Assembly: GCA_021234155.1 (NCBI GenBank)
Contig: JAJEKV010000259.1
Span: 1-64,000, forward strand
Reading direction: 5' to 3'
Length of the DNA stretch: 64,000 bases
Origin: Isoetes taiwanensis
Taxonomy: Eukaryota > Streptophyta > Lycopodiopsida > Isoetales > Isoetaceae
Shown: positions 36,036 through 62,070 of the stretch, in pieces
How the letters are laid out: each line of letters starts with the position of its first letter
Numbering within the stretch: position 1 is the first letter of the stretch
Program-made: the position numbers and the translations under genes
The notes under the pieces: generated by a model
Seen by the model: the letters and a program-made list of their open reading frames with translations, nothing else
The model's database searches: none
What the model was told of the DNA's origin: nothing

Positions 36036-36560
36036 CTAAATTTTGTCAACCTTGTTGCCCTTCACGATTGGATTTGCTTTTGCAATGGCATCTCTTCCAG
36101 CTGCCTTATAGTCAAAAGAGCAAGCATGTTTGTCGGAGTAGCGATGTAAAGAGCAAAACAAATCCCCACATCGGCACTTAAACCCTGTCAGCCCCACCCG
36201 TTTTTTGCAAGAAGAACAGCGATTTGGTTGCTTTTGGAGAGTAACTTCTTCTGGGCCAATACTTGATGAGGGCATAACCATGCCACCACCTTCAATAGGA
36301 CCATTAGATGCCATAGCTGTTACCATTTCCTTTTGCCTGTCCATATGCCCTTCTGCCTTCAAAGTCAACCCAGACTTTTCAAGCACAGCCTGTGCAGACG
36401 CAACGTTGGCCTGCACAGTCACAATGTCCCTGTAACATTTGGAGCAAAGATTCATGGTTGCCTTACTACCGAAAAATCCACAGTTATTTGCGCACAGAAT
36501 AGGTCCTTCTGGCTGCTGACATTCTGTTTCTTCATTCCTATCCCAGCTCTCCTGTGCCAT
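36036..36560 (-). CDS. A20/AN1 zinc-finger stress-associated protein
   Basis: A 174-residue uninterrupted frame. The A20 zinc finger is near the N-terminus: CANNCGFFGS, then MNLCSKCYRD, giving the C-x3/4-C-x11-C-x2-C pattern. The AN1 finger is at the C-terminus: RCSSCKKRVGLTGFKCRCG, then FCSLHRYSDKHACSFDYK, with all seven Cys/His ligands plus the last Cys. The end, GRDAIAKANPIVKG.KVDKI, is the conserved tail of plant SAP proteins. In the family, these proteins act in stress responses in cytosol and nucleus, and the A20 finger can bind ubiquitin. The ATG at 36558-36560 is chosen because MAQES matches the paralogue at 50947. The coding part lacks introns, as is usual for plant SAPs. It is a 174-residue paralogue of the 165-residue protein at 50947-51444. 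Confidence 0.95.
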   Translation of the reverse strand: MAQESWDRNEETECQQPEGPILCANNCGFFGSKATMNLCSKCYRDIVTVQANVASAQAVLEKSGLTLKAEGHMDRQKEMVTAMASNGPIEGGGMVMPSSSIGPEEVTLQKQPNRCSSCKKRVGLTGFKCRCGDLFCSLHRYSDKHACSFDYKAAGRDAIAKANPIVKGNKVDKI

Positions 36561-36939
36561 TTTCACTTATACCAAATGACTGCCTTATGTCTGTTTTTAG
36601 GGCAAATGCCAATTCGTAAGCCACTACGTTTTTTTCTGTTGAGTATGCTTCAATCACATAACTTTAGCAACGAATCATTGCAAACCGGTTCAAATTCAAA
36701 ATTCCCAACAAAGATTTCATATTGAAAAGCAACCATGTGAAAGAAGCACTAAGGCTCTATATCTTAAACCGATCACGAAATTCAACTTCTGAAACAGCCC
36801 ATTTTTGCAAGGGCAAAGCAAGAAGAAGAGGAAGAACCTTTTCTGCGAGGGGCCGAAGCGAGAAACAACGAATAGTGTGGATCCAGGGGCGCCGGAATAG
36901 ACCGAGAAGCGCCTTACGACCGGGGCGGCAGCCCAAGCG

Positions 36940-39959: not shown

Positions 39960-41190
39960 TTTTGGGACAGAATTGCACATCTACTCTCGAGTTGTGACGA
40001 AATTTTCTCACTTCATGTTGATTCAGGCCTATGAGGTGAAGGCTCATACGTACACAATAGAGTTCCAGAAACGAGGCTTGCCACACTGCCATCTCCTCAT
40101 GATTCTTGAACAAGAAGACAAAATTCGAGACAGCGACACCATTGACAGCATCGCAAGCGCTGAGATACCGGGCCCAGAAAACCCCAACTTGCAAGAGAAG
40201 GTCATCAAACATATGATCCATGGCCCATGCGGTCCCCTCAACCCAACTACTCCTTGCATGAAAGTCACGGAAGGAAGTCCAACAAAGGAATGCACAAAGG
40301 GATTTCCAAAGCCATTTAATGAGAGTACAAGAGTCAACGCAAACGGCTATCCAGAGCACAAAAGACGAGATACAAGCGACTTCATGAGGGGTGACAAGCC
40401 TATTGACAACAGATGGATAGTTCCCCACAATCGATGGTTGCTTGAAAAATATGAGGCACATATCAATGTAGAGCAGTGCTTCAGTGTCGGTAGCGTGAAG
40501 TATATCTACAAGTACATCCACAAGGGGCATGATCGAGCATCCATCAAGGTCACTACAAAACCAACAGGGGAATCCACATCCACATTCAATTGAGACGAGG
40601 TGGAACAGTACCTTGACACAAGATACATCTCTGCACTTGAAGCCATGTGGAGGCTATACAGGTTCAAGATGCATGGCAACTCACACACAGTACACAGGCT
40701 ACATGTTCACCTGCCAGACAACCAAGCTGTCTATTATCAAGAAGGCCATGAAAGAGAAGCCATCGAGTAACAGATGCAAAAGTGAACATGCTAACCACAT
40801 GGTTTGAGCTCAACAAGAATGATCCAAATGCACGTGAATACACCTATCCAGAAATCCCCCAGCACTATAGGTTCACGAACCAAAAGTCTTGGAAAAAGAG
40901 GAAGGGGAAGTTCAAACTCATTACACGGATGTACAATGTGAGTCCTAAGGACAATGACCGCTACTACCTCCGCCTCCTGTTGCTACATATCAAGGGCGCA
41001 ACGAGCTTCGAAGACATGCGCACTATCAACGGAAAACTATGTTCAACTTTCAATGAAGCTGCCAAAGAGCTCGGCTTACTGGAAGATGATGTCGAATGGG
41101 AGAAGACACTCAAAGATGCAAGCATCTTCCAGATGCCGATGCAGCTACGCCAAACGTTCGCATTCATTTGCCTATACAATGACCCATAAG
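39960..41190 (+). pseudogene. Helitron Rep (HUH endonuclease) region
   Basis: The frame opens mid-domain at YTIEFQKRGLPHCHLLMIL (about 40055-40110), the metal-binding HUH motif as HCH. Then follow HMIHGPCG, CTKGFPKPF, and KYIYKYIHKGHDRA (about 40495-40535) with the catalytic tyrosine region. After a TGA at 40592-40594 the same frame continues DEVEQYLDTRYISALEAMWR and VHLPDNQAVYY. A frameshift then leads to TTWFELNKNDPNAREYTYPE and YYLRLLLLHIKGATSFEDMRT (to 41190). The protein would nick and rejoin DNA during transposition. Confidence 0.88.
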
Positions 41191-41197
41191 ATCCAAT

Positions 41198-42838
41198 GTG
41201 GCTATGGCACCTCTTCAAGGACAGCATGCCAGAAGATTACCAACAGCAAATGCCACAAATCGCACACTAAAGGACATCGACAACATCTTCCAGATGAGCG
41301 GCTGCACATGCCAGCAACTTGGACTACCAGAACCACGACTATACCTTCTAAGCAACTCTCCAAATGAACTGACATTCGATACAGAAAAGGAGTCGAAAGA
41401 AGGACAGGAAAACTATAGCAAACTCAACAAGGAGCAGAAGCACATAGCTGACATTATCTTGAATGCAATCAACCATCATCAAGTCCAATATATCAATGTC
41501 GATGGCCCGGGAGGCACAGGCAAGACGTTCCTCTTTAATAGTCTAATCAGTATACTAAGAGGATGTGGCATTGGTGTTGTGTCAGTGGCTTGGACAGGAA
41601 TTGCCAGCCTTCTCTTGAAGGGAGCACAAACAGTTCATTCGACATTTAAGTTACCACTCAACTTGACACAAGAGGTAACCTTCGCTCTGCGAGCAACGAG
41701 CCAACAAGCAAACCTACTAAAAAAGGCAAGCACCATGGTCTAGAATGAAATCGGGATGCCACACACGCAGGCACTCACTGCCGTCGACATGCTTTTACAT
41801 GAGATACGCCAGGATGACAGGCCATTTGGCGGAATGATAATGCTCACCGGCGGCGATTTTCGACAGCAGCTGCCTGTGGTCAAGCATGCAACAAGGACGG
41901 AAGTCATCTCGAAGTGTGTCAAGAGCAACCCATTGTGGACTAAGTTCAAGACCTACAAACTGACGCAAAATATGCGGGTCGGAAAAGGAGAGCAAATCTT
42001 CTCAAATTGGCTACTACATCTCGGTAACGGGGAACAGATGAACAATGAGCCAGGGCTCGACCATGACTTGGTGGAGATACCCGAAGAATGCATTGTCCAA
42101 GACGACCTGATTGACAGCATCTTCGACAAGGAAATTACGGAGGCAAATGTGCACCTGTCGTATGACAAGACCATCCTAACACCAAAGAATGAAGACACGC
42201 TAAGGATCAACGATAAGATCCTCTTAAGGTTGAATGGACAACTCCATGCATATACGAGCATAGATGCCATCATTGCAGAAGGTGAAGATGCTACAAGGAA
42301 ATTTCCAATCGAGTTCATCAACCACTTGACACCTTCTGACATGCCACCGCATAAGCTACACATCAAAGACGGCGCAACCATCATCCTACTCAGAAACATG
42401 AACCCAAAGGCCGGTCTCTGCAACGGCACCCGCCTTCGCGTCATCAAAGCACACCCAAGAATCATAGATGCAAAGATAATCATAGGCAACTATAAAGGAA
42501 CACGAGTCCTCATACCAAGAATAACCCTAGAACCATCAGATAATGACCTCCTCCCCTTCAAGCGAATACAGTTCCCCACGCGACTCGCATTCTCGATGAC
42601 CATAAACAAGTCACAAGGCCAGTCCATGACCTCCGTTGGCATCTACCTACCAATGCCAGTCTTCACACACGGTCAACTCTATGTCGCATTTTCAAGATGC
42701 ACCACACAACACGGAGTGAAGGTATACACTCAAGACACCTCAAGACAAGGAGCACTGCTAAAAAATAATAGGAGGTTCACTCCAAATGTGGTCTACAAAG
42801 ACATTCTACGGGATGAAATAGCCCCTAAACTTCTATAG
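41198..42838 (+). pseudogene. Helitron Pif1-like helicase region
   Basis: Walker A is GPGGTGKTFLFN (about 41505-41540); the Walker B/III region reads MLTGGDFRQQLPVV (about 41838-41880); later motifs include LTQNMRV and, near the end, LAFSMTINKSQGQSM and LYVAFSRC (about 42590-42710). This is a superfamily 1B helicase of the Pif1 type. A TAG at 41741-41743, probably from Trp before NEIG, breaks an otherwise continuous frame of about 546 codons. It ends at TAG 42836-42838, about 200 bases before the element terminus. Confidence 0.9.
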
Positions 42839-50597: not shown

Positions 50598-50946
50598 GCC
50601 GCCAGGTCTTTGCTTGGCCGTCTTTATCCAGGTGCCTTTGATTAAAATCTCCTTTTCTTTGCCCTGTGCTCGGATCTGCTGATCCTATCTGTTTGTTAAA
50701 TATTGTGTTCATGATTCTTTTTCTTCCCTTGCCAATTTCATAATTCGCTAAAATTTTTGAAGCTTGATTTGTAGATGTTATTTGTAAAACAAGTACCAAC
50801 AATTAAGATGTTCAACAAAACTGCACAACGGTGCAGTAGTGAATGATTGAGTAAAGATGCTGTATTACTATCTGCGAGAAAAGAGGATTGGCAGCCCAAA
50901 TTTGCATTTGCCCTAAAATTATATAAACCTCATTTAGTTTGTGCAA

Positions 50947-51444
50947 ATGGCTCAGGAGAGTTTGGAGAGGAATGATGGAACAGGATGCCAGCAACCAGAC
51001 AGACCTATTCTTTGCACAAATAAGTGTGGTTTTTTTGGTAGTAAAACCACCAGGAATCTATGTTCCAAGTGCTACAGAGATACTGTTACACTGCATGTTG
51101 CACAAACTGTATCAGAAAAATCTAAGCTAACGCTGCAAGCAGAGGTGCAAATAGAGAAGCGCGAGGAGGTTAATGATTCTAACACTGGAAGTGTTGTATC
51201 ATCCTCTAGCACCAATCAACAAGATATGCAGCAGCAGCAGCAGTCGCAGCAGCCAAACCGTTGCTTGTCATGCAAGAAAAGGGTTGGATTGACAGGTTTC
51301 AAGTGCCGCTGCGGGCATGTGTTTTGTGCATTACACAGACACTTTGATAAGCATGCTTGCACATTTGATTATAAGGGAGCAGGAAGAGATGCAATTGCAG
51401 AAGCAAATCCTGTTGTCAAAGCTAGCAAGGTTGACAAAATATAG
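50947..51444 (+). CDS. A20/AN1 zinc-finger stress-associated protein
   Basis: A 165-residue open frame starting MAQESLERNDG. The A20 finger is CTNKCGFFGS then RNLCSKCYRD. A Gln/Ser-rich linker with a CAG run (QQQQQSQQ) follows. The AN1 finger is RCLSCKKRVGLTGFKCRCG then FCALHRHFDKHACTFDYK, with all ligands present, ending GRDAIAEANPVVKASKVDKI. The ATG at 50947 is preferred to the upstream GTG at 50941 because it aligns with the other gene and is a true start codon. In the family, these are stress-response proteins with ubiquitin-related roles. It is intact and probably functional, and about 14 kb from its inverted paralogue. Confidence 0.95.
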   Translation: MAQESLERNDGTGCQQPDRPILCTNKCGFFGSKTTRNLCSKCYRDTVTLHVAQTVSEKSKLTLQAEVQIEKREEVNDSNTGSVVSSSSTNQQDMQQQQQSQQPNRCLSCKKRVGLTGFKCRCGHVFCALHRHFDKHACTFDYKGAGRDAIAEANPVVKASKVDKI

Positions 51445-53147: not shown

Positions 53148-53551
53148 TGAGGCTTGTCGAACAAAGTGATGGCCATAAGCTAGAACCGATTAGACACTAG
53201 AATAACTTGTGATTGCTGATAAAATGCAGGATCACCTGGCTTAGGCTCAAGGTAGGAGCATCGAGAGAAGGCATCAAGCTTTTTGTGCAGGGATCTAGGA
53301 TGGTACTTGATAAATCAATGCGGAATAATACTTGAGTATGCCAACGAGCTTGGTGATGGTTGAGCACTTGAGCAGAGTTGGAATATTTTAAATTTCAATG
53401 ATCAATAGAGATTGTGGCCTTATGAAGGGATTTCTTTAGAAAACGTCTCTATTCCTCGAAAGAATCAATTATCGCTAAAAATTCCTCATCATAAATTAGA
53501 TAATTGGTTTCTGGGCCTAGAACTTTTGAAATGATAGGCAATCGAAACAAC
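53148..53551 (-). pseudogene. gypsy fragment, left of DNA transposon
   Basis: The minus strand matches 44395-44810 of the second gypsy element: RNase H end, DKECF region, through GCCTTCTCTCGATGCTCC to the AAGTTATTCTAG segment. Homology stops at the transposon end at 53551 and resumes at 61513 on the far side, so the two pieces were one fragment before the insertion. Confidence 0.85.
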
Positions 53552-53588
53552 GTTTAAATTAAAACGCACTTATTTAAGAAGTGCGTTT
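53552..53588 (+). repeat. Left terminal inverted repeat and subterminal hairpin
   Basis: The 24 bases at 53552-53575 begin GTTTAAATT and contain AAAACGCACT; 22 of 24 match the reverse complement of the right end. An inverted AAGTGCGTTT (53579-53588) makes a 10-bp hairpin with it. AAACGCACT is thus present twice at this end, a likely transposase-binding unit. Confidence 0.88.
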
Positions 53589-54099
53589 GAAAGAATCCTT
53601 AAATAATTTTAGAAAATTTTCAAATGAAGCCAAAATAGAGGCAATTTAGATAGCTAAGTACAATTTTTGCAAAATCGATCCTAAAAACAGCTTTTTTTAT
53701 GAAAATATGCCACAAAAAAATTAATACAGAGAAAAAAATGTCATTTTTTGGGGGGCAAACAAACTTTTATGAAAGCAACTGAAATACCAGCGACAAAAAT
53801 TGAGCTTATGAAAAAGGTTCTCTTTCATGTTTGTGTAACAATTGTTTTGTGGTTGCAGTTACAGAGGCAATAAAATATGTTCCTACACAGCAAATGTAAG
53901 TTGATCTAGAACAACATCACAAAAAGAACAATATGCAATGGAACAAACTTCTTAAAATTACCCACCTAGAAGAAAGGACACATATGCAGATGATACATTA
54001 ATAAATTAGAAAAGAAATGTTACAAAGTTCCTCCTATAGGAAGTAATTAGGGAGTGGTACATGTCAGAAAAATTTGGTCGAAACAACACAGGAAAGAGA

Positions 54100-54141
54100 G
54101 GTATAAATTTATACCAAAATCCAGCGGTATAAATTTATACC
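54100..54141. repeat. Palindrome pair 3' of the methyltransferase gene
   Basis: Two perfect copies of GGTATAAATTTATACC at 54100-54115 and 54126-54141, 26 bases apart start to start, directly after the stop codon region of the minus-strand gene. A decayed copy may follow at about 54150. Confidence 0.95.
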
Positions 54142-54874
54142 GACATCAAGCAGTAAAGATTTATATGTTGTGTGGTGGCTCATCCCAGTCCATGGGACTC
54201 TCATCCCCTCTTCGTTCATCTTCTTGAGACAACACTTGGACAGAGACACATGTTTCTGCTTGCGCCAGAATTTCAAGGGGTTTCTCTGCAGTTTCTTCTT
54301 GTACTGGTTCGAGGTCAATGAACTCAACCTCGTCATCACGCCTCCCCGTGATAGGAGGCTGTACTTCTGTGTAAGTGCCTTTAACGTCTCCAGAGGCAAT
54401 CTTAGCACCCAGTTCTTCGTTTTCATCAGGAAAAGACTCACAAGAACTTATTCTAGTTCTTATGAAACTGATTTTATCTAAATCTATATCAATGGACACC
54501 ATATTGCGCCCCTGCTTGAGTGCACAAATTGCTGTGGTGCCAGTTCCAGAAAATGCATCAAGGACCCAGTCACCTGGGCAAGAGAACCACTGTATCAAGT
54601 TGTTAATTAGTCTCTGAGGTTTTTGGGAGTGAGAAACTACAACACCTTGACGTTGAGGATCTCTTAACTTTTGCAACACAACAGGAAATTGGAAAGCATT
54701 GCAAGGAGATGATTTCTCCTCTCGCCTGTTAAAGTGCACCATGGTTTTCTTAGTGTCAGCGCTATAATATCCTATGTGGAAGTGCTCGAAGCAGCTAACC
54801 AACCTAGGACCTCCACCATTTCCTTTTACATTCGTCTTCAACCTGGAAAGAGGAAGTTAGAAAACAAAAGAGAC

Positions 54875-54890
54875 GGTATAAATTTATACT
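54875..54890. repeat. Palindrome copy in methyltransferase intron 3
   Basis: GGTATAAATTTATACT, one mismatch to the 16-bp palindrome, inside the 67-bp intron 54843-54909. Confidence 0.9.
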
Positions 54891-55910
54891 GCAACGCTCT
54901 AGACTTTACCAGATACAGTTCTCGAAGCTAGCATTGCAAACGACATCCATGGGCTTAAGTACAGACATTGTTTGCAAGTCTGAGTGGAAAACAATGACAC
55001 GCCAATGGGAAGACAAGGTAACTTCTTTCAGGCCTTCCAAGAATTCTCAAACTTGAATGTGCAAGAAGGCCTCATCCTCAAAAAGACTGTTCTTAATCTT
55101 GAACCCATAAGGTATGTCAGCAATGCAAAGAGTAAAGTTTTGCTTTTCGACAAAAGTTTGCAGTTTTCTGCAGTCGCCATGCACTACTTTGTATAAGCAA
55201 TCATGTCCAAAGGTTGTAAATCTTTCATAGTCACCCTCCAAGCTGCTTGTTGTAACTTGTTTTCCTTGTTCTATGGCCTTCAATCTCTGCCTTTCTTCTT
55301 TTGCTCTCCGAACTAGGTTCAAAAATCCTGTTGGTAGTCCTTTCTTTTTGTTCTGTAAAACTCCTCGAATATGAGCCTAAGTTTACGTACCCAGCCACTA
55401 AAGTTGCAGCATGCTCTCTTATAATACTGGCGGACGTACTTCCAGGGTAAAGAAGCTTGCACTCCTCCCATACCTCTAGGTTTAGTTGCTTCATAAGCTC
55501 AGACTGGCAGGTGACAATGTCTTTTTGACTACCATGAAACAGAAGGCGCCAATTACAAAATGACGAAAAGAACGTAGCAAATTAGGAAGACAACTCACGT
55601 CTTGGCTTCTTTTGCCATTTCATCAAGTGTAAACTCTTTTGCAACAACCTTCTCTAGCAGCCTGACAATTATTTCTTTGCTTTTTATTCCCTGAAGTTGC
55701 GTTCCATGGAACAATGCTCATATTTGTTTGTTTAGCCTCAGTGTTTTTCTTTGTTTTCTTGCCCGTGCTGCTTGTTTGTTCTTTCAATTCATCATCTTAA
55801 AATTCTTTCTTGTAGATCCCACACCTAGAAAACCAAATATATAACAAATATCTTAGTTACATAAGAAACAAGTACTGTTTTTGAGGAAAGCGGCAGGACC
55901 GTGTTCCAAC

Positions 55911-56107
55911 GGTATAAATTTATACGAAGCATGTTGGTGGTATAAATTTATACCATAAACACAAGGGAAAGGAGTCTAGACACCAGCGGTATAAATTTAT
56001 ACCAAGTATGCCGGTGGTATGAATTTATACCATAAACACGAAAGAGAACCCTAGAACCTAAGCGGTATAAATTTATACTATGTATGTCGGTGGTATAAAT
56101 TTATACC
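55911..56107. repeat. Six palindromes in methyltransferase intron 1
   Basis: Copies start at 55911, 55939, 55988, 56016, 56064 and 56092. Those at 55939, 55988 and 56092 are perfect and the other three differ at one position. Spacing alternates 28 and 48-49, because they sit two per unit in a 76-77-bp tandem repeat present 2.6 times. The whole cluster is inside the 361-bp intron 55825-56185. Confidence 0.95.
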
Positions 56108-57112
56108 GTAAACACGAAAGAGAACCCTAGAACTTAATAGAACATAAGCGTCCGGGCATTTTGCTAAGAACTTCTAAGAACTCACCTGGCCATCTCGAAA
56201 AGCAAGTTGAAAGTAATTGTCGTACCGCTTCACGACCATGTGAGGCTTCTTATCTGTGTCATAGCTAAGGCAACATTCTGTGACACAAACCTCTTGCAGT
56301 AGTTGCTGTAACATATTTTTCTGCTTTTTGAAGTCCTCACCATGTTCGTTTTTAAATTCCACAAACTCTCTGTGCATAAACCGGATTTTATCTATTAGGC
56401 TCTTCTTTAACCTGAAGTCGTTGTCTAAGTTGTGACTCACTGCTACTACTTTAGCTTCTTCATCGGCCAGTCCAACATAAATGTGTGCCTCAATACTTTT
56501 TCAAACTTCATTCCTGCTTTCTTCTTTCGACAACTCCTTTTTGGCCTTGTAACTGTGGGTGCCACCTAAAACAAAATATGTATAATCTTCAAAAAGTGCT
56601 ATCTTATACTCTGATAGTTCTTGTATCTGATCTCGGCTGATCATACCCACTAGCAGGGATACATGCGCATGTGGATTTCTCCGCATTCTCTGCTTTAAGA
56701 TAACAGCATGCGCAGCATAGAGTTTCCTCACTTGAAGCAACCTTACACCATTCTCATTCTTAGGAGGACTCTTAATTGTGTCTATGGACAATGAGATTGT
56801 TTGCTTTAACAACATTGTTTCATTGCCTTTTTTAGCAAGGCGCTAGATCTGTCAGCTAGTTTTAGCACAATGTCTGCTCCAGGTGCCTTCTTCAAAGCTT
56901 CTGCAGATTCCTCAATGGTGAGTGCCTTGGTTGTTCTCTGTTTTTTTAGTTTCTGTGGCTTTAGAAGCTGCAAGTCTTTTCTTAGAGGGCAGGACCACTT
57001 CTTTCTCAACCTCCTCTTCTTCTATCTCACTTCCTTTGTTTGAATCCTCCTTAACACGTGGATACCACATGCCCTTGACCATCACTTTTTCGTCGCAAAG
57101 GATAACTGATGC

Positions 57113-57191
57113 GGTATAAATTTACACCGTTCGCGTCACCACACTATTTGATTTGTGACGGCCAAGCATTTACGCGGTATAAATTTATACC
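57113..57191. repeat. Two palindromes upstream of the methyltransferase gene
   Basis: 57113-57128 (one mismatch) and 57176-57191 (perfect). They lie 31 and 94 bases before the proposed ATG at 57082. Their TATAAA cores could serve as TATA elements or as operators overlapping the promoter. Confidence 0.92.
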
Positions 57192-57399
57192 GACAGAGGA
57201 CAAACTAGAAAATATTTAAAGATCTAGTAGAATTTGTTTTTTACCAAACTAAAACTCAGCCAAGTTGGATACTTACGTGGCCATTGTGGTATACAGAGGT
57301 CTATAGAGTTGATGTTGTGCCCAAAAGGTCAACTATTTAAGGCGGAGTGCGAGCGCCTTCGTTCCGAACTCGCATATAAGTAAATAGTTGGGGAGCTTT

Positions 57400-57475
57400 C
57401 GTACAAATTTATACCGACGTATAAATTTATATTGCCTCTGTCTAAATTTGTACCGCCTCTGTATAAATTTATACC
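57400..57475. repeat. Four phased palindrome variants upstream of the transposase gene
   Basis: Variants start at 57400, 57418, 57439 and 57460 with 14, 13, 13 and 15 of 16 positions matching GGTATAAATTTATACC. Spacing is 18, 21, 21, close to two helical turns, so bound proteins would lie on one face of the DNA. They end 25 bases before the ATG at 57500. Confidence 0.85.
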
Positions 57476-57499
57476 GTTCCACTCCTTCTACTGCTTACC

Positions 57500-60325
57500 A
57501 TGGACCGCGAAAAGCGGAAGGTTTCACCATCATTGGCTCCATGATAGCTTCCTCCATGTGTGATGTTCACCCCTCCTCCAGCGGACATTAGTTCCTCTTC
57601 AGTGGTGTTCTCATTGGACGATGATGTTGATTCAGCTTCGCCCGACTCTTACTTGCAGACTGTTTCTCCACTACTGTCCACTCCAATCCCTCCTGTACCT
57701 GAACGCAGACTACCTCTTCCCGTTCAGTTTACTCCACCTCCACCTGTACCTAAAAGGAGGCTACCTCCTCCTGTTCAGTTTACTCCATCTAGTACCTGAA
57801 CGCAGGCTATCTCCTCCTGTTCAGTTTACTCCAATCCCTTCCCCAGCCCAACGTCGACTTCCCTCACCTGTCCACTTCACTCCTGCGCCTTTGCAACTTA
57901 GTCCTTCCCCTTCTAACTCTACACATCCTGATCTTAGCGGTGGTAGTCATAAGCTTGCAACTCCTATGTTCTATGCCACTTCAGGAGCTGCTCAATTACG
58001 CCACCAACCTAGACTATTTTTTCCTAGGGACAGGCTCTCTCTTTCCTCTACAACATCAGCCTCTACACCTACTACTCTTATTTCAAATGAAGAATCATCT
58101 CGTGTAGTTCTCGTGTCTGATGAAGAAACACCTCGTGTAGGTTTTTCGGATGAGGATATAGCGCGATGAAAGATATTTTGTTCGAGTTCAAAGCTCCTGT
58201 TAGTCATAACCTCAAACAAGACTTACACAAGAAGGCTTGTACCTCACAAAGACGAAGGAAATTGATGGACGAGGGGCACTTGAGAGCAACTCATACAAAA
58301 CATTGTTGCTCGCAGCGCTGTTTACTATAGGTCTCCGAGAATTAAGACTACTCCGTGACAACTACAGTTCCATGACTTTACTAGAACAAAGAGGTTACTT
58401 AGCATTGAATATTAGACCAGACATAGGTGACAAGTTTTCTTACACAGCTGGTGGGCGCAGTGTCTGTCAAGCAGCCTTTAAAACGATTCATGCTTTAGGC
58501 ATCAGAAGACTTCATACATTGAAGAAATGGCTAGACAAGGACCCTGGCATCAACGACTACTGCCACACAGGAAGTGTCTCACGAATTCATGCACTTCAAT
58601 GTGTTTCTTGGATGGAAGGCTTCTTCAAAGAGTCTTGCGAGAAACTACCTAACAACCCAATGTACCATTTAAGTGATAACTTCACTAAACATGAAGTTTA
58701 TAACAACTACAAAGACTTATGTGTTGAAGCTGGTGAAAGGCATGTATGCCACTCTTACTTCACTGTCTTGTGGAAAAAGATTTGTACACTTGCATGTTGT
58801 TGGTGCCATGGTCTTCAATAGGAAACTTTCTTGCAAGACTTTCTTAAACTATCCAAACATTTCATGTTGATCCTACTCTCATTATTACAATCTTACACAA
58901 GATTCTTTCTAGTCTGGAGCATTTACCACCAGTTCTGTACCTCCAGCTAGACAACACAACGAGAGAGAATAAGAACCAAGCATTATTTACATACCGTGCT
59001 ATATTGAGAAACAAAATTTTCAAGAAAGTGAAGATTGGTTTTTTTCTTGTTGGGTACACACATGATCAAATTGATAGATGTTTAGTAGGTTCTCCAAACG
59101 TCTTGCTCGAAAGAAAGCACTTAGCCTGCCAGCAATGATTGATGTTATTCAAGAATCCTACAATCCTCGTCCAGAAATTGAGTTGTTGGGTGAGACTTAT
59201 GATTTCAAAGAACTGATTTTTTCAGAAAGACCTGTAGGTCACCGTGCTATTGAGCCTTTAAGAAATATCACGTTCTTGCATCAGATCAAAATCTCACTTA
59301 AAGATGGGAAAGCCAGCCTACAAGGCAAGAAATATGCTACATCGAAGAAGTGGCAGCCAGCAGAAGGAATTCAGTTCATTCGAACCATTCCTGATATTAC
59401 TTCTATGATCTCAGCGGAGCAAATGCCTTTAAAAAGCTTGAAAGAAGTCACGAGGAGTAAAAAGGAAGGGAGAGCCTTTCAACCAGACAAGTCGTTGGAT
59501 TGCATTGAAATGAGAATCTTGTCATGCTCTAACCATTTTGGAGAAGCAGGTACTTCATGGTGGCCTCAGTTTTTTGCTCAACAACGTGCGCTGCTCCATG
59601 CCATGTCACAAGGTCGCAGACCGATTGTCTTCAACTGGCTAAATGAAAATAAAATGGAACAAGTGCTGGCACAAAATGAAAATCCAGTGGAACAGGAACG
59701 GCTCGTGTCTAGCTCAGATGAAGATGATAGAGTGATTTATAAGGGCCCTAAACGCATGGCACAACATGTTGCTAGAGTTTTTGGTTCCGTCTCTGAGATT
59801 CAAAGAGGAATGCTTGTAGTTGTTCCAGCTAATGATGATGAGAGTGGGAAGCCATTCTGGTTGGCTAAAGTACTGGATGTAACCCGAGAGGATGGCATCC
59901 CTGTGAAACTAAAAGTACATTGGATGAGAACAAGTGGATTTAATGCATTTAATGGGACTTATAACATGGAGATGGTCAGAACTGGAGTGGGAAAGAGAGC
60001 CAAGACGAAAGCAAACGTTGGTACCATAGACCTTACTGAAGTGAAGGTGCTAGCATATGACTTCATTCTAACTGCTGCTAACAAGTTGCATGCTGTAACT
60101 CAAAAGTTGCTGAGGTCAGCATGTGGATTGGATAACGCACACAAAAAACATTCCAGAGATGATGACGAAGATTCACTGGTAGACAATGATGAAGAGGATC
60201 GTTCAAGCACATCCAGTTTTGAGAGTGAGGCCGGGGACACTAATAACTCTGATGATCTCGGTCTAAACGAGTCAGAGGATGAGATGCATCCCGACTTGCC
60301 TGCAAAATGTAAGTTTATTAGATAA
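57500..60325 (+). pseudogene. DUF7869-type presumed transposase
   Basis: An ATG at 57500 opens MDREKRK but two stops follow; the frame resumes at about 57560. A proline-rich part has about five repeats of VPxRRLPxPVQFTP (57690-57880) with a frameshift inside. Next comes RSVCQAAFKTIHALGIRRLHTL (about 58450-58530), typical of the domain ahead of DUF7869. DUF7869 follows in broken frames: HVVGAMVF near 58792, YLQLDNTTRENKNQ (58937-58980), KKVKIGFFLVGYTHDQIDR (59023-59078), then FSRFSKRLAR in the next frame. A 415-codon frame (59078-60325) completes it with PFWLAKVLDV and an acidic tail. Between WKKI and HVVGA, roughly 200 residues expected in the family are missing, an internal deletion. The transposase role is inferred from family context and position in a TIR element. 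Confidence 0.7.
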
Positions 60326-61474
60326 GGTATATATGTAAATAGAAAAAAGTTTAGTGCACAGACAATGTCAAAATGTATCACATTTTTGACAATTTTGTTC
60401 ATAAATTTTGTGATGTCTTTTAAAATGATATGGAGCATGCTAGGGGGAGTGAACAAGGGATTAAGGCAATGGGGCATAGGGACACCAATGGTTACAAGAA
60501 ATGACAAATAAAAGGGGCAAGATGTTAGGCCATATTCAACTATTAAAGCCAAGTATAGGGAGAAATACTTTCGTCAAAAGTAAAGCAACGAAATAAGGCA
60601 TGCAACTATTTTCTTAAAAGGGGAGACGAACTGGCAGACCAGGATTTGGAGAGCATGCCTTAATCTAAAAAAGGGGATCGATCTGTTATTAGAAGGGGCT
60701 GGCCAGCACAGAAAAAAAGGGAGGAGACTTCTGCCATTGAATCCGGCACCAGCAGCCGATTCCTGCCATCAATTTCGGCACCATCAAACCGGACTCTGGC
60801 TGTTGTTTCCAAAATCCGACCTGCAGGGACTCTAAGAAACTTGGGATCCAGACTTCAAGGTTTTTGCCTTTCTCTTGCAGCCGAAAATTGGATCAAGCCT
60901 AATCTATGTCGGTTTTATTGCCAAGCATATTAAAGCCCTTATGCTGTTGTAAATTGGAAGTTCATGTGCTAAAGGGGAATAAGCCTTGACCTTTCTTTTT
61001 CCTAAATCCCTTGGAATTGCCTTAATCTTTGGATCCGATTGGGTGGTAACTGGATGCTCCGTAGCTTGGTTGTGGAAACCAAGTACCTTTGTTATTGATC
61101 AAAGCTCTTAATGGACTCTAAGAACTATTTCTGTTGCTTCCTATCTATCTAACTGTGGTACAAAGTGGATAACATCTTTCAGAATCCTTAAACCATATCA
61201 CAAAACTTTGAATGCAACGTGTTCTTGTTATTCCAGTGCACTAGCTGTTTTCTATGATGTCTGTTTTTTCGCGTTTTTGAATTTTTTACTATTTTTCGAT
61301 ACCAACCTGGGGGGCTGAAATGGGTATCGGAGATTTTTTCATGAAAGCTAAGTTCAATTGCACCCCCCGAAAATGGTACCCAGAATGTCCTAAATGTCAC
61401 ACTTGTCACGCAAAAACCACGAAAATGGATCTTTTTTAGGGAATTTTAGGGAATCTTTTAAAAATTCCTTTTAA
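60326..61474. other. Right non-coding part of the DNA transposon
   Basis: No gene is recognised. 60523-61180 differs in style (TGTTAGGCC start, GC-richer, a TGGTACAAAGTGG stretch near 61155) and might be a secondary insertion such as a solo LTR. I could not find matching ends or a target duplication. 61260-61440, close to the right end, has CGGGGGG and CATGAAA segments that weakly mirror the left subterminal region at about 53745-53785. Confidence 0.4.
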
Positions 61475-61512
61475 AGTGCGTTTGGAGCAAATTAGTGCGT
61501 TTCAATTTAAAC
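61475..61512 (-). repeat. Right terminal inverted repeat and subterminal direct repeat
   Basis: The 24 bases at 61489-61512 end AATTTAAAC. AGTGCGTTT occurs at 61494-61502 and again at 61475-61483 in the same orientation, so the motif is doubled here as at the left end but arranged as a direct repeat. Confidence 0.88.
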
Positions 61513-62070
61513 TTTGTCATGACCATCTCCCTGCTGCAGCATGATACTCCGAAGAACAAAATCAGAAGCATCTGCTTTGATAATATATGGACACGACTGG
61601 TGCTATGGTAAAAACATGCTTCAAGATAACGAAACCAGTTTTTGCTTCCTCCATATAAATGGCACACCCTTTGCTATGAGGTGTGTCAAAGGAAAGAAGC
61701 TGAAATTGGAAAATATGAAAAAATACTGAATCTCTCAGTCTGAAGAAGGTAGTTGCTAATTCAAGACAGTATTGACAATTACATGATCCATAGAGAATCC
61801 ATACTCAGAAGCTTCTAGAGAAGCTGTCGAACATGCCTCTCGTGTTCTTCAAGAGTTTTAGAATAGACAAGGATATCATCCAGATAAATGATAACAAAGG
61901 TGTCCAAAAACTCCCAAAGATAGGCCATAGCTAAAACTCTGCTAGAGCATTGTTAAGTCCAAACGGCACAACTATATACTCAAAATGGCTATCCGAGTAC
62001 GAAATGTCGTCTTCCATTCATCACCCTCACGGATTCGGATAAGATTGTAGGCACCATTGTTATGTAGCTC
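61513..62070 (-). pseudogene. gypsy fragment, right of DNA transposon
   Basis: The minus strand gives reverse transcriptase (GAYNLIRIREGDEWKTTFRTR-like start, [23 protein letters not shown] in place of the [10 protein letters not shown] box after a frame change) and then RNase H (FRYLEACFYHSTS, with GVSCCSREMV before the break). It joins the fragment at 53148-53551 across the transposon. It matches 44210-44395 closely. Confidence 0.85.

Follow-up and report, generated by a model that had tools for sequence, protein, structure and literature searches.

The 64,000-nucleotide stretch of Isoetes taiwanensis DNA analysed here (contig JAJEKV010000259.1 of assembly GCA_021234155.1, positions 1 to 64,000; hereafter the window) contains, at 53546-61518, a damaged copy of a high-copy element that is a cut-and-paste DNA transposon. 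The element carries two divergent genes, one encoding a DUF7869 protein that is likely a DDD transposase and the other a protein that probably joins a ParB-like region to an amino-methyltransferase, together with arrays of a short palindrome. The mobility signature, the pairing of the two genes, the purifying selection on both, the position of the arrays outside the exons and their presence in non-autonomous copies are all observed. We consider it an even bet that the methyltransferase binds the palindromes and marks its own element against silencing.

A transposon family with two divergent genes

All genome searches were carried out on the 1.66-Gb assembly that contains the window (G000). Comparison among copies defines a 30-bp terminal inverted repeat (TIR) close to AACAANGTTTAAAWTGAAACGCACTTATTT. 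A scan of the window paired 53547-53575 with 61489-61517 (29 nt, 90% complementary). Since the cross-copy comparison gives a 30-bp repeat, the left TIR is placed at 53546-53575 (+) and the right TIR at 61489-61518 (-), which moves both ends 6 bp outside those of the original prediction, drawn from 53552. The 24-bp repeats proposed there, matching at 22 of 24 positions, are correct, and other copies extend them. Both ends were located in 15 copies (the window, L019, L020, L022, L024, L027 and nine more), and 12 of these are flanked by an exact 4-bp target-site duplication (TSD): ATCC, TTCA, TATG, GAAG, ATCC, TAAG, ATTT, ACTT, AAGA, CTAC, TATT and TATT. The TTCA duplication belongs to L020, whose right TIR is partly deleted, and was read by eye. 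The duplications of the window (TCGA/ATGA), L027 (ATTA/ATAG) and C1038 (TATA/ATAA) are inexact. In two further copies one end was not located, the left in C1039 and the right in C920. The check set out in the original prediction, several copies with common ends and a constant duplication length, is thus largely passed. Four complete gene-less derivatives of 2.17-2.20 kb (L049:556-2758, L054:587-2754, L056:488-2687 and L057:1266-3440) retain both TIRs and 6-10 palindromes, with an exact TSD in three of the four. Exons were not detected within these four non-autonomous elements; in L056 a partial transposase match lies just beyond the element.

Sola elements are described in the available text of PMC10741241 as having a DDD transposase, a 4-bp TSD and a length of mostly 2-9 kb, and a moss Sola1 is cited in PMC9033089. 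By this published description the present family would be of Sola type: it combines 30-bp TIRs and a 4-bp TSD with a DUF7869 transposase that displays a DDD pattern, and its lengths are 8.7-9.1 kb (L019, L022, L024 and L027), 8.0 kb (the window) and 7.2 kb (L020). The transposase would cut at the TIRs and insert the element at 4-bp staggered breaks, the duplications being the observed trace. Membership in the KDZ group was rejected on the basis of the 4-bp TSD and of PF25273 as the sole Pfam family above cut-off in the transposase exon; KDZ elements carry a KDZ transposase and generate an 8-bp TSD.

The transposase gene lies on the plus strand. Its N-terminal part, a Pro-rich segment followed by a conserved region, occupies 57560-58821 and is spread over several frames in the window, as delineated by open reading frames and copy comparison. 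The C-terminal part is a 415-residue open reading frame at 59078-60325 with a PF25273 (DUF7869) match (E 4.6e-8). In a 599-residue open frame of the copy L009, PF25273 spans residues 82-275 (E 7.7e-53). An alignment of 38 proteins was made from this copy and 37 of 90 matches (Ceratopteris, Riccia, amphioxus, sea urchin, acorn worm and others). In L009:7040-8839 numbering, position 64 is Asp in nearly all of them, and positions 144 and 186 are Asp throughout. The DUF7869 protein is thus likely a DDD transposase; because other residues are invariant too, the catalytic roles of the three Asp residues are putative. Beyond the catalytic domain, in the C-terminal part of 59078-60325 and its relatives, the sequence is conserved (...GMLIAVPADNDESGKPFWLAKVLEV...LKVHWM...). 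On visual inspection this stretch looks like a chromatin-reader-like barrel; Pfam gave no match to it.

The gene on the minus strand begins with an N-terminal exon; the next exon carries an acidic stretch along with the probable ParB-like region, another holds ADIPYGF, and the last contains QKPQRLI and DAFSGTG. The exons were delineated from open frames and cross-copy matches. In the window the last of these, at 54161-54841, is open and includes a PF01555 (N6_N4_Mtase) match in 54164-54841 (E 7.3e-15), so that the two divergent genes of the original prediction are both recovered as domain matches. The ADIPYGF piece lies at 55047-55322, corresponds to L009:2350-2862 and is followed by an in-exon stop. 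The probable ParB-like region of the same gene, at 56174-57009, consists of three open pieces in the window and is stop-free in 12 of 17 sampled copies. We take QKPQRLI to be motif X-like, DAFSGTG to be the AdoMet motif I and ADIPYGF to be the catalytic motif IV. In beta-class amino-methyltransferases motif IV precedes motifs X and I, and the same order is found here. Matches in the PDB include MboIIA, CcrM and RsrI. A tblastn search of phage sequences with the methyltransferase returned 13 records, all below 45% identity, and an hhalign comparison of the ParB-like region with a weak Bacteroides-phage match gave nothing.

The ParB-like region and the methyltransferase are assigned to one protein because annotated proteins of other plants hold both parts. 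The 752-residue Adiantum nelumboides protein P0093 aligns over 99% of a composite of the two parts with 31% identity, and both parts are present in Riccia sorocarpa P0094 and P0096, whose gene models lack the motif-IV exon. Judged from these sequences, the accessory protein probably couples the ParB-like region to an amino-methyltransferase that would write N6-methyladenine (6mA) or N4-methylcytosine (4mC), and in the host genome the exons are presumably joined into one gene. The search also brought up twelve bacterial or environmental proteins weakly related to the plant methyltransferase (P0100-P0111), six of which carry PF18755 together with PF01555; these six point to a possible bacterial source of the methyltransferase.

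The two genes occur together throughout the family. The searches yielded 3,218 genomic candidates for the methyltransferase exon and 4,828 for the DUF7869 protein, of which the best 150 and the best 101, respectively, were compared. Among these best-scored matches, 40 pairs lie within 20 kb of each other, the window's included, and all 40 are divergent, with 26 separated by under 7 kb; widening the limit to 60 kb gives 45 pairs, of which 44 are divergent. A chance neighbourhood of two unrelated repeats was rejected on the uniform divergence of the 40 pairs. Both gene regions have the same layout in 14 of 20 fetched 10-kb loci, a biased frequency as these loci were chosen for their high-scoring transposase and left-end matches. 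No methyltransferase region was found within the fetched stretch of the other six (L010, L012-L015 and L028); for C1065 and C1102, which are two of the six, methyltransferase matches in the expected orientation were found at distances of 26 and 44 kb, consistent with nested insertions. Distances between copies also correlate between the two genes (r=0.78 for 16 copies, from 105 usable pairs out of 120, a value reached in 0 of 2000 permutations; r=0.67, not permuted, when the divergent copy L021 is omitted). The pairing appears to extend to a liverwort, as the gene numbers of Riccia P0096 (R1sor_010796) and the DUF7869 protein P0033 (R1sor_010795) adjoin and the contigs that carry them are equal in length. 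The proposal that a bacterial-type amino-methyltransferase travels with the transposase is supported, and both proteins recur in other non-flowering plants.

Both genes are under purifying selection. Median ratios of nonsynonymous to synonymous substitution (dN/dS) are 0.13 for the ParB-like exon (79 of 136 pairs kept), 0.19 and 0.25 for the methyltransferase exons (43 of 91 and 27 of 66), 0.22 for the N-terminal exon (97 of 153), and 0.43 and 0.33 for the transposase exons (165 and 173 of 190 each). Two pairs of transposase exon 1, and no pair of any other exon, have dN/dS of at least 1. The ratios were obtained pairwise by the Nei-Gojobori method, excluding pairs with saturated or very low dS or fewer than 60 shared codons; stop-bearing copies were retained and their stop codons skipped. 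The values are rough because pairs were filtered in this way and because the median dS is about 1 or above for the exons of the methyltransferase gene.

These results bear on the possibility that the methyltransferase is a passive passenger caught by the transposon. Transposons often carry captured gene fragments, and 66 of the 150 best-scored methyltransferase exons contain stops, the remaining 84 being stop-free. Nevertheless, the divergent pairing, the low dN/dS of 0.13-0.25, the adjoining Riccia gene numbers and the reports of ParB-methyltransferase proteins in algal transposons (PMC12477816, available text) largely refute passenger capture, to which we give hardly any credence.

Palindrome arrays and their possible role

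The palindrome, overlooked in the original prediction, has the consensus CGGTATAAATTTATACCG and a length of 16-18 bp. The window contains 13 matches to GGTATAAATTTATACC with at most 2 mismatches, all within the element, versus 0.03 expected. Two of these lie downstream of the methyltransferase stop (54100-54141), one outside the exons in a putative intron (54875-54890), six in an array within a putative intron, with pairs 28 bp apart (55911-56107), two in a putative intron 5' of the ParB-like exon (57113-57191), and two, with 1-2 mismatches, between the divergent genes (57400-57475). Eight copies contain 13-39 palindromes each, counted at no more than 2 mismatches in the inner 16 bp. They cluster downstream of the methyltransferase stop, in the putative methyltransferase introns and between the two genes; none of the 178 sites falls in a coding exon, though exons account for 55% of the length.

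In the entire genome there are 4,415 exact 18-bp sites, compared with 0 for a reversed-pattern control. All ten palindrome clusters sampled, which were the first ten listed and hence non-random, lie within the element family, as identified by exons (L050, L053, L055 and L058), by an exon and an end (L052), or by one or both ends (L049, L051, L054, L056 and L057). The core is nearly always symmetric: 30 sampled loci contain 311 core sites of the form GTATxAATTyATAC, 301 of which show symmetry, 296 of these having the plain consensus. The divergent copy L021 (4382-7504) shares 52% identity with L009 over the ParB-like exon and 66% over transposase exon 2. Five of its nine core palindromes read GTATGAATTCATAC, a double change that preserves the symmetry; 0.26 such sites would be expected if half-sites were independent.

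In the scheme that we favour, the ParB-like/methyltransferase protein would bind as a dimer to the palindromes in the introns, the 3' end and the divergent promoter. Binding would occur through the N-terminal half of the protein, and the methyltransferase would modify nearby DNA of its own element family. The postulated methylation, whichever base and site it affects, would shield the element and its palindrome-bearing gene-less derivatives from host cytosine methylation and heterochromatin silencing in a VANC-like manner. Such self-targeted anti-silencing is favoured because the VANC21 targets of Arabidopsis form tandem repeats that expand in the introns and upstream regions of VANDAL21, and because VANC induces loss of DNA methylation (PMC5735166, available text). 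A more specific version, offered tentatively and with less confidence, depicts the arrays as parS-like sites loaded by a ParB-like methyltransferase that writes plant-foreign 6mA or 4mC across the element only. Every copy bearing palindromes, with or without genes, would be recognised as self and so escape silencing by cytosine methylation. The palindrome would evolve together with the protein within subfamilies, as hinted by the symmetric variant of L021.

Several observations weigh against this scheme. Matches of the ParB-like region to PHROG ParB are weak (E 3.8e-4, 0.0061 and 0.013 in three copies), and a PHROG ParB scan of four fern and liverwort relatives (P0093, P0094, P0096 and P0097) gave no match. 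No ParB match was obtained when the region was searched against Pfam, NCBIfam and PDB profiles, or when it was compared by hhalign with phage P1 ParB. Tandem duplication may account for part of the L021 symmetry, because three of the five variant sites share their flank, and L058, which is about as divergent (55% identity over the ParB-like exon), retains the usual palindrome. The palindromes might equally be sites for the transposase or a host factor. The window copy itself, flanked by TCGA and ATGA, lacks an exact 4-bp duplication. No sampled copy has all six exons stop-free, so that the intact pair of genes sought in some copies is not shown. Finally, the bdelloid N4CMT, a host amino-methyltransferase, reinforces silencing, the opposite outcome (PMC8885841, available text), and by analogy a methyltransferase that promotes silencing is conceivable here.

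The most serious competitor to self-targeted anti-silencing, though on balance an unlikely one, regards the palindromes as sites at which the transposase or another element or host factor acts in transposition or transcription, the methyltransferase functioning without them. The four complete gene-less derivatives keep their TIRs and 6-10 palindromes, as would be expected for any trans-acting mobility factor; one array adjoins the transposase gene, and in L049, at least, about 0.6 kb separates an array from an end. However, in the six copies examined (the window, L019, L020, L022, L024 and L027) the sites are 0.4-5.3 kb from the left end with none near the right end, and most clusters are in or beside the methyltransferase gene.

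A lower probability attaches to a role of the methyltransferase in controlling transposition rather than host silencing, for example by limiting excision to newly replicated hemimethylated DNA. The precedent is bacterial, as transposition of IS10 and IS50 is coupled to Dam amino-methylation, and the purifying selection on an element-encoded methyltransferase agrees with such a role. The palindromes, the one type of candidate site located, lie away from the TIRs, where no systematic methylation-site search was made.

Less probable still is that the arrays are mutational products, generated by slippage or conversion of an A/T-rich, cruciform-prone repeat without any bound protein. The spacing is indeed repeat-like, with 89 of 153 gaps shorter than 110 bp measuring 28-32 bp (sites at no more than 3 mismatches), and the number of sites varies from 13 to 39 among copies. 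But the core is nearly invariant while the spacers diverge (sites likewise chosen at no more than 3 mismatches), coding exons are free of sites, L021 exhibits a symmetric double change, and the arrays are retained in the derivatives.

The window copy and its surroundings

The window copy is defective. Relative to L009 the transposase gene has lost about 360 bp at 58773-58779 (+), including the first conserved Asp, and it contains six stops. At 58930-59085 (+), inspection by eye picked out what is left of the second and the third of the conserved Asp motifs (LYLQLDNTTRENKN and GYTHDQID), out of frame with the next open reading frame. In the methyltransferase gene there is one stop in the motif-IV exon and four in the ParB-like exon. 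The 3' region of the element is broken by a 775-bp insert at 60426-61200, foreign to the transposon. This insert looks like the solo long terminal repeat (LTR) of a short LTR retrotransposon, because of its ends (TGATATGG...CCATATCA) and because its many further genomic matches include four same-strand pairs about 2.4-2.6 kb apart.

The element is bordered by TCGA on the left (53542-53545) and ATGA on the right (61519-61522), a decayed or imperfect 4-bp duplication. When the flanks are joined with 4 bp removed, a single open gypsy RNase-H-like frame is restored (...KADASDFVLRSIMLQQGDGRLPIISKVLGPETNYLIYDEEFLAIIDSFEE); the interruption of a gypsy fragment claimed in the original prediction is hence upheld, and the edges drawn for it are the part that had to be corrected. 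A decayed duplication is likely but unproven, because the frame is also kept when 1 or 7 bp are removed.

Elsewhere in the window, Helitron remains occur at 39973-42835, with Helitron_like_N and PIF1 helicase domains in neighbouring open frames. Two similar A20/AN1 zinc-finger open frames, at 36039-36566 (-) and 50941-51441 (+), lie about 15 kb apart in opposite orientation.

Relation to known systems

The closest counterpart is Sola1-1_Ec32 of the brown alga Ectocarpus, a DNA transposon that encodes, on the strand opposite the transposase as in the present family, a protein combining a ParB-like domain with a 4mC/6mA-type methyltransferase (PMC12477816). It differs in its length of 21.5 kb, its host and its 1104-residue protein, and the available text of that paper mentions no palindrome arrays. 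Similar ParB-methyltransferase proteins are reported from transposons of green and red algae (PMC12477816, citing Iyer et al. 2011 and Petroll et al. 2025), and giant EnSpm elements with accessory genes are reported from red algae in the same source. Its authors raise the possibility that proteins of this kind bind to, and modify, the very transposon that encodes them. The literature search, to which most subscription journals were out of reach, found no land-plant ParB-methyltransferase transposon, no palindrome arrays and no paper naming DUF7869. The claim of an undescribed element is only partly right, as the protein type has been published for Ectocarpus Sola1.

Other mobile elements share single features. 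Fungal transposons with TET/JBP genes (KDZ and others) also carry a DNA-modifying enzyme, for which an escape from silencing has been proposed (PMC12730594, available text); there the enzyme is a dioxygenase in other hosts with other transposases, here it is a methyltransferase. Cytosine methyltransferases borne by retrotransposons (PMC5890265, available text) are likewise DNA methyltransferases of eukaryotic mobile elements, but they are C5 enzymes. The bdelloid N4CMT is a horizontally acquired eukaryotic DNA methyltransferase, but a host gene that marks transposons for silencing (PMC8885841, available text).

With VANDAL21/VANC21 the likeness lies in an element-encoded second protein and in arrays of a short motif that expand and diverge in introns and upstream regions (PMC5735166 and PMC10398659, available text). 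The VANDAL21 motif YAGTATTAY is non-palindromic, whereas the motif here is palindromic. Membership in VANC/VANDAL was rejected, as there is no VANC-domain Pfam match, the domains being DUF7869 and N6_N4_Mtase, and the TSD is 4 bp; the two would be alike only in how they work. VANC proteins carry DUF1985/DUF287 and no methyltransferase, and the VANDAL transposase is of Mutator type.

The ParB-methyltransferase proteins of transposons, for which self-binding has so far been a suggestion (PMC12477816, available text), gain a concrete candidate target in a short palindrome with thousands of exact sites in one genome. Proteins of this type are now seen in ferns, a liverwort and the host of the window, and the hitherto uncharacterised DUF7869 domain is tied to a likely DDD transposase that leaves duplications of 4 bp. 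Should the marking prove real, a eukaryotic transposon would manage its own chromatin by means of a bacterial-type base mark. Because a ParB-like protein with a methyltransferase has been published for the brown-algal Sola1 (PMC12477816, available text), the kind of element is already known; the Isoetes element is a land-plant variant of the algal-type ParB-methyltransferase transposons, in which the candidate target arrays are the new part.

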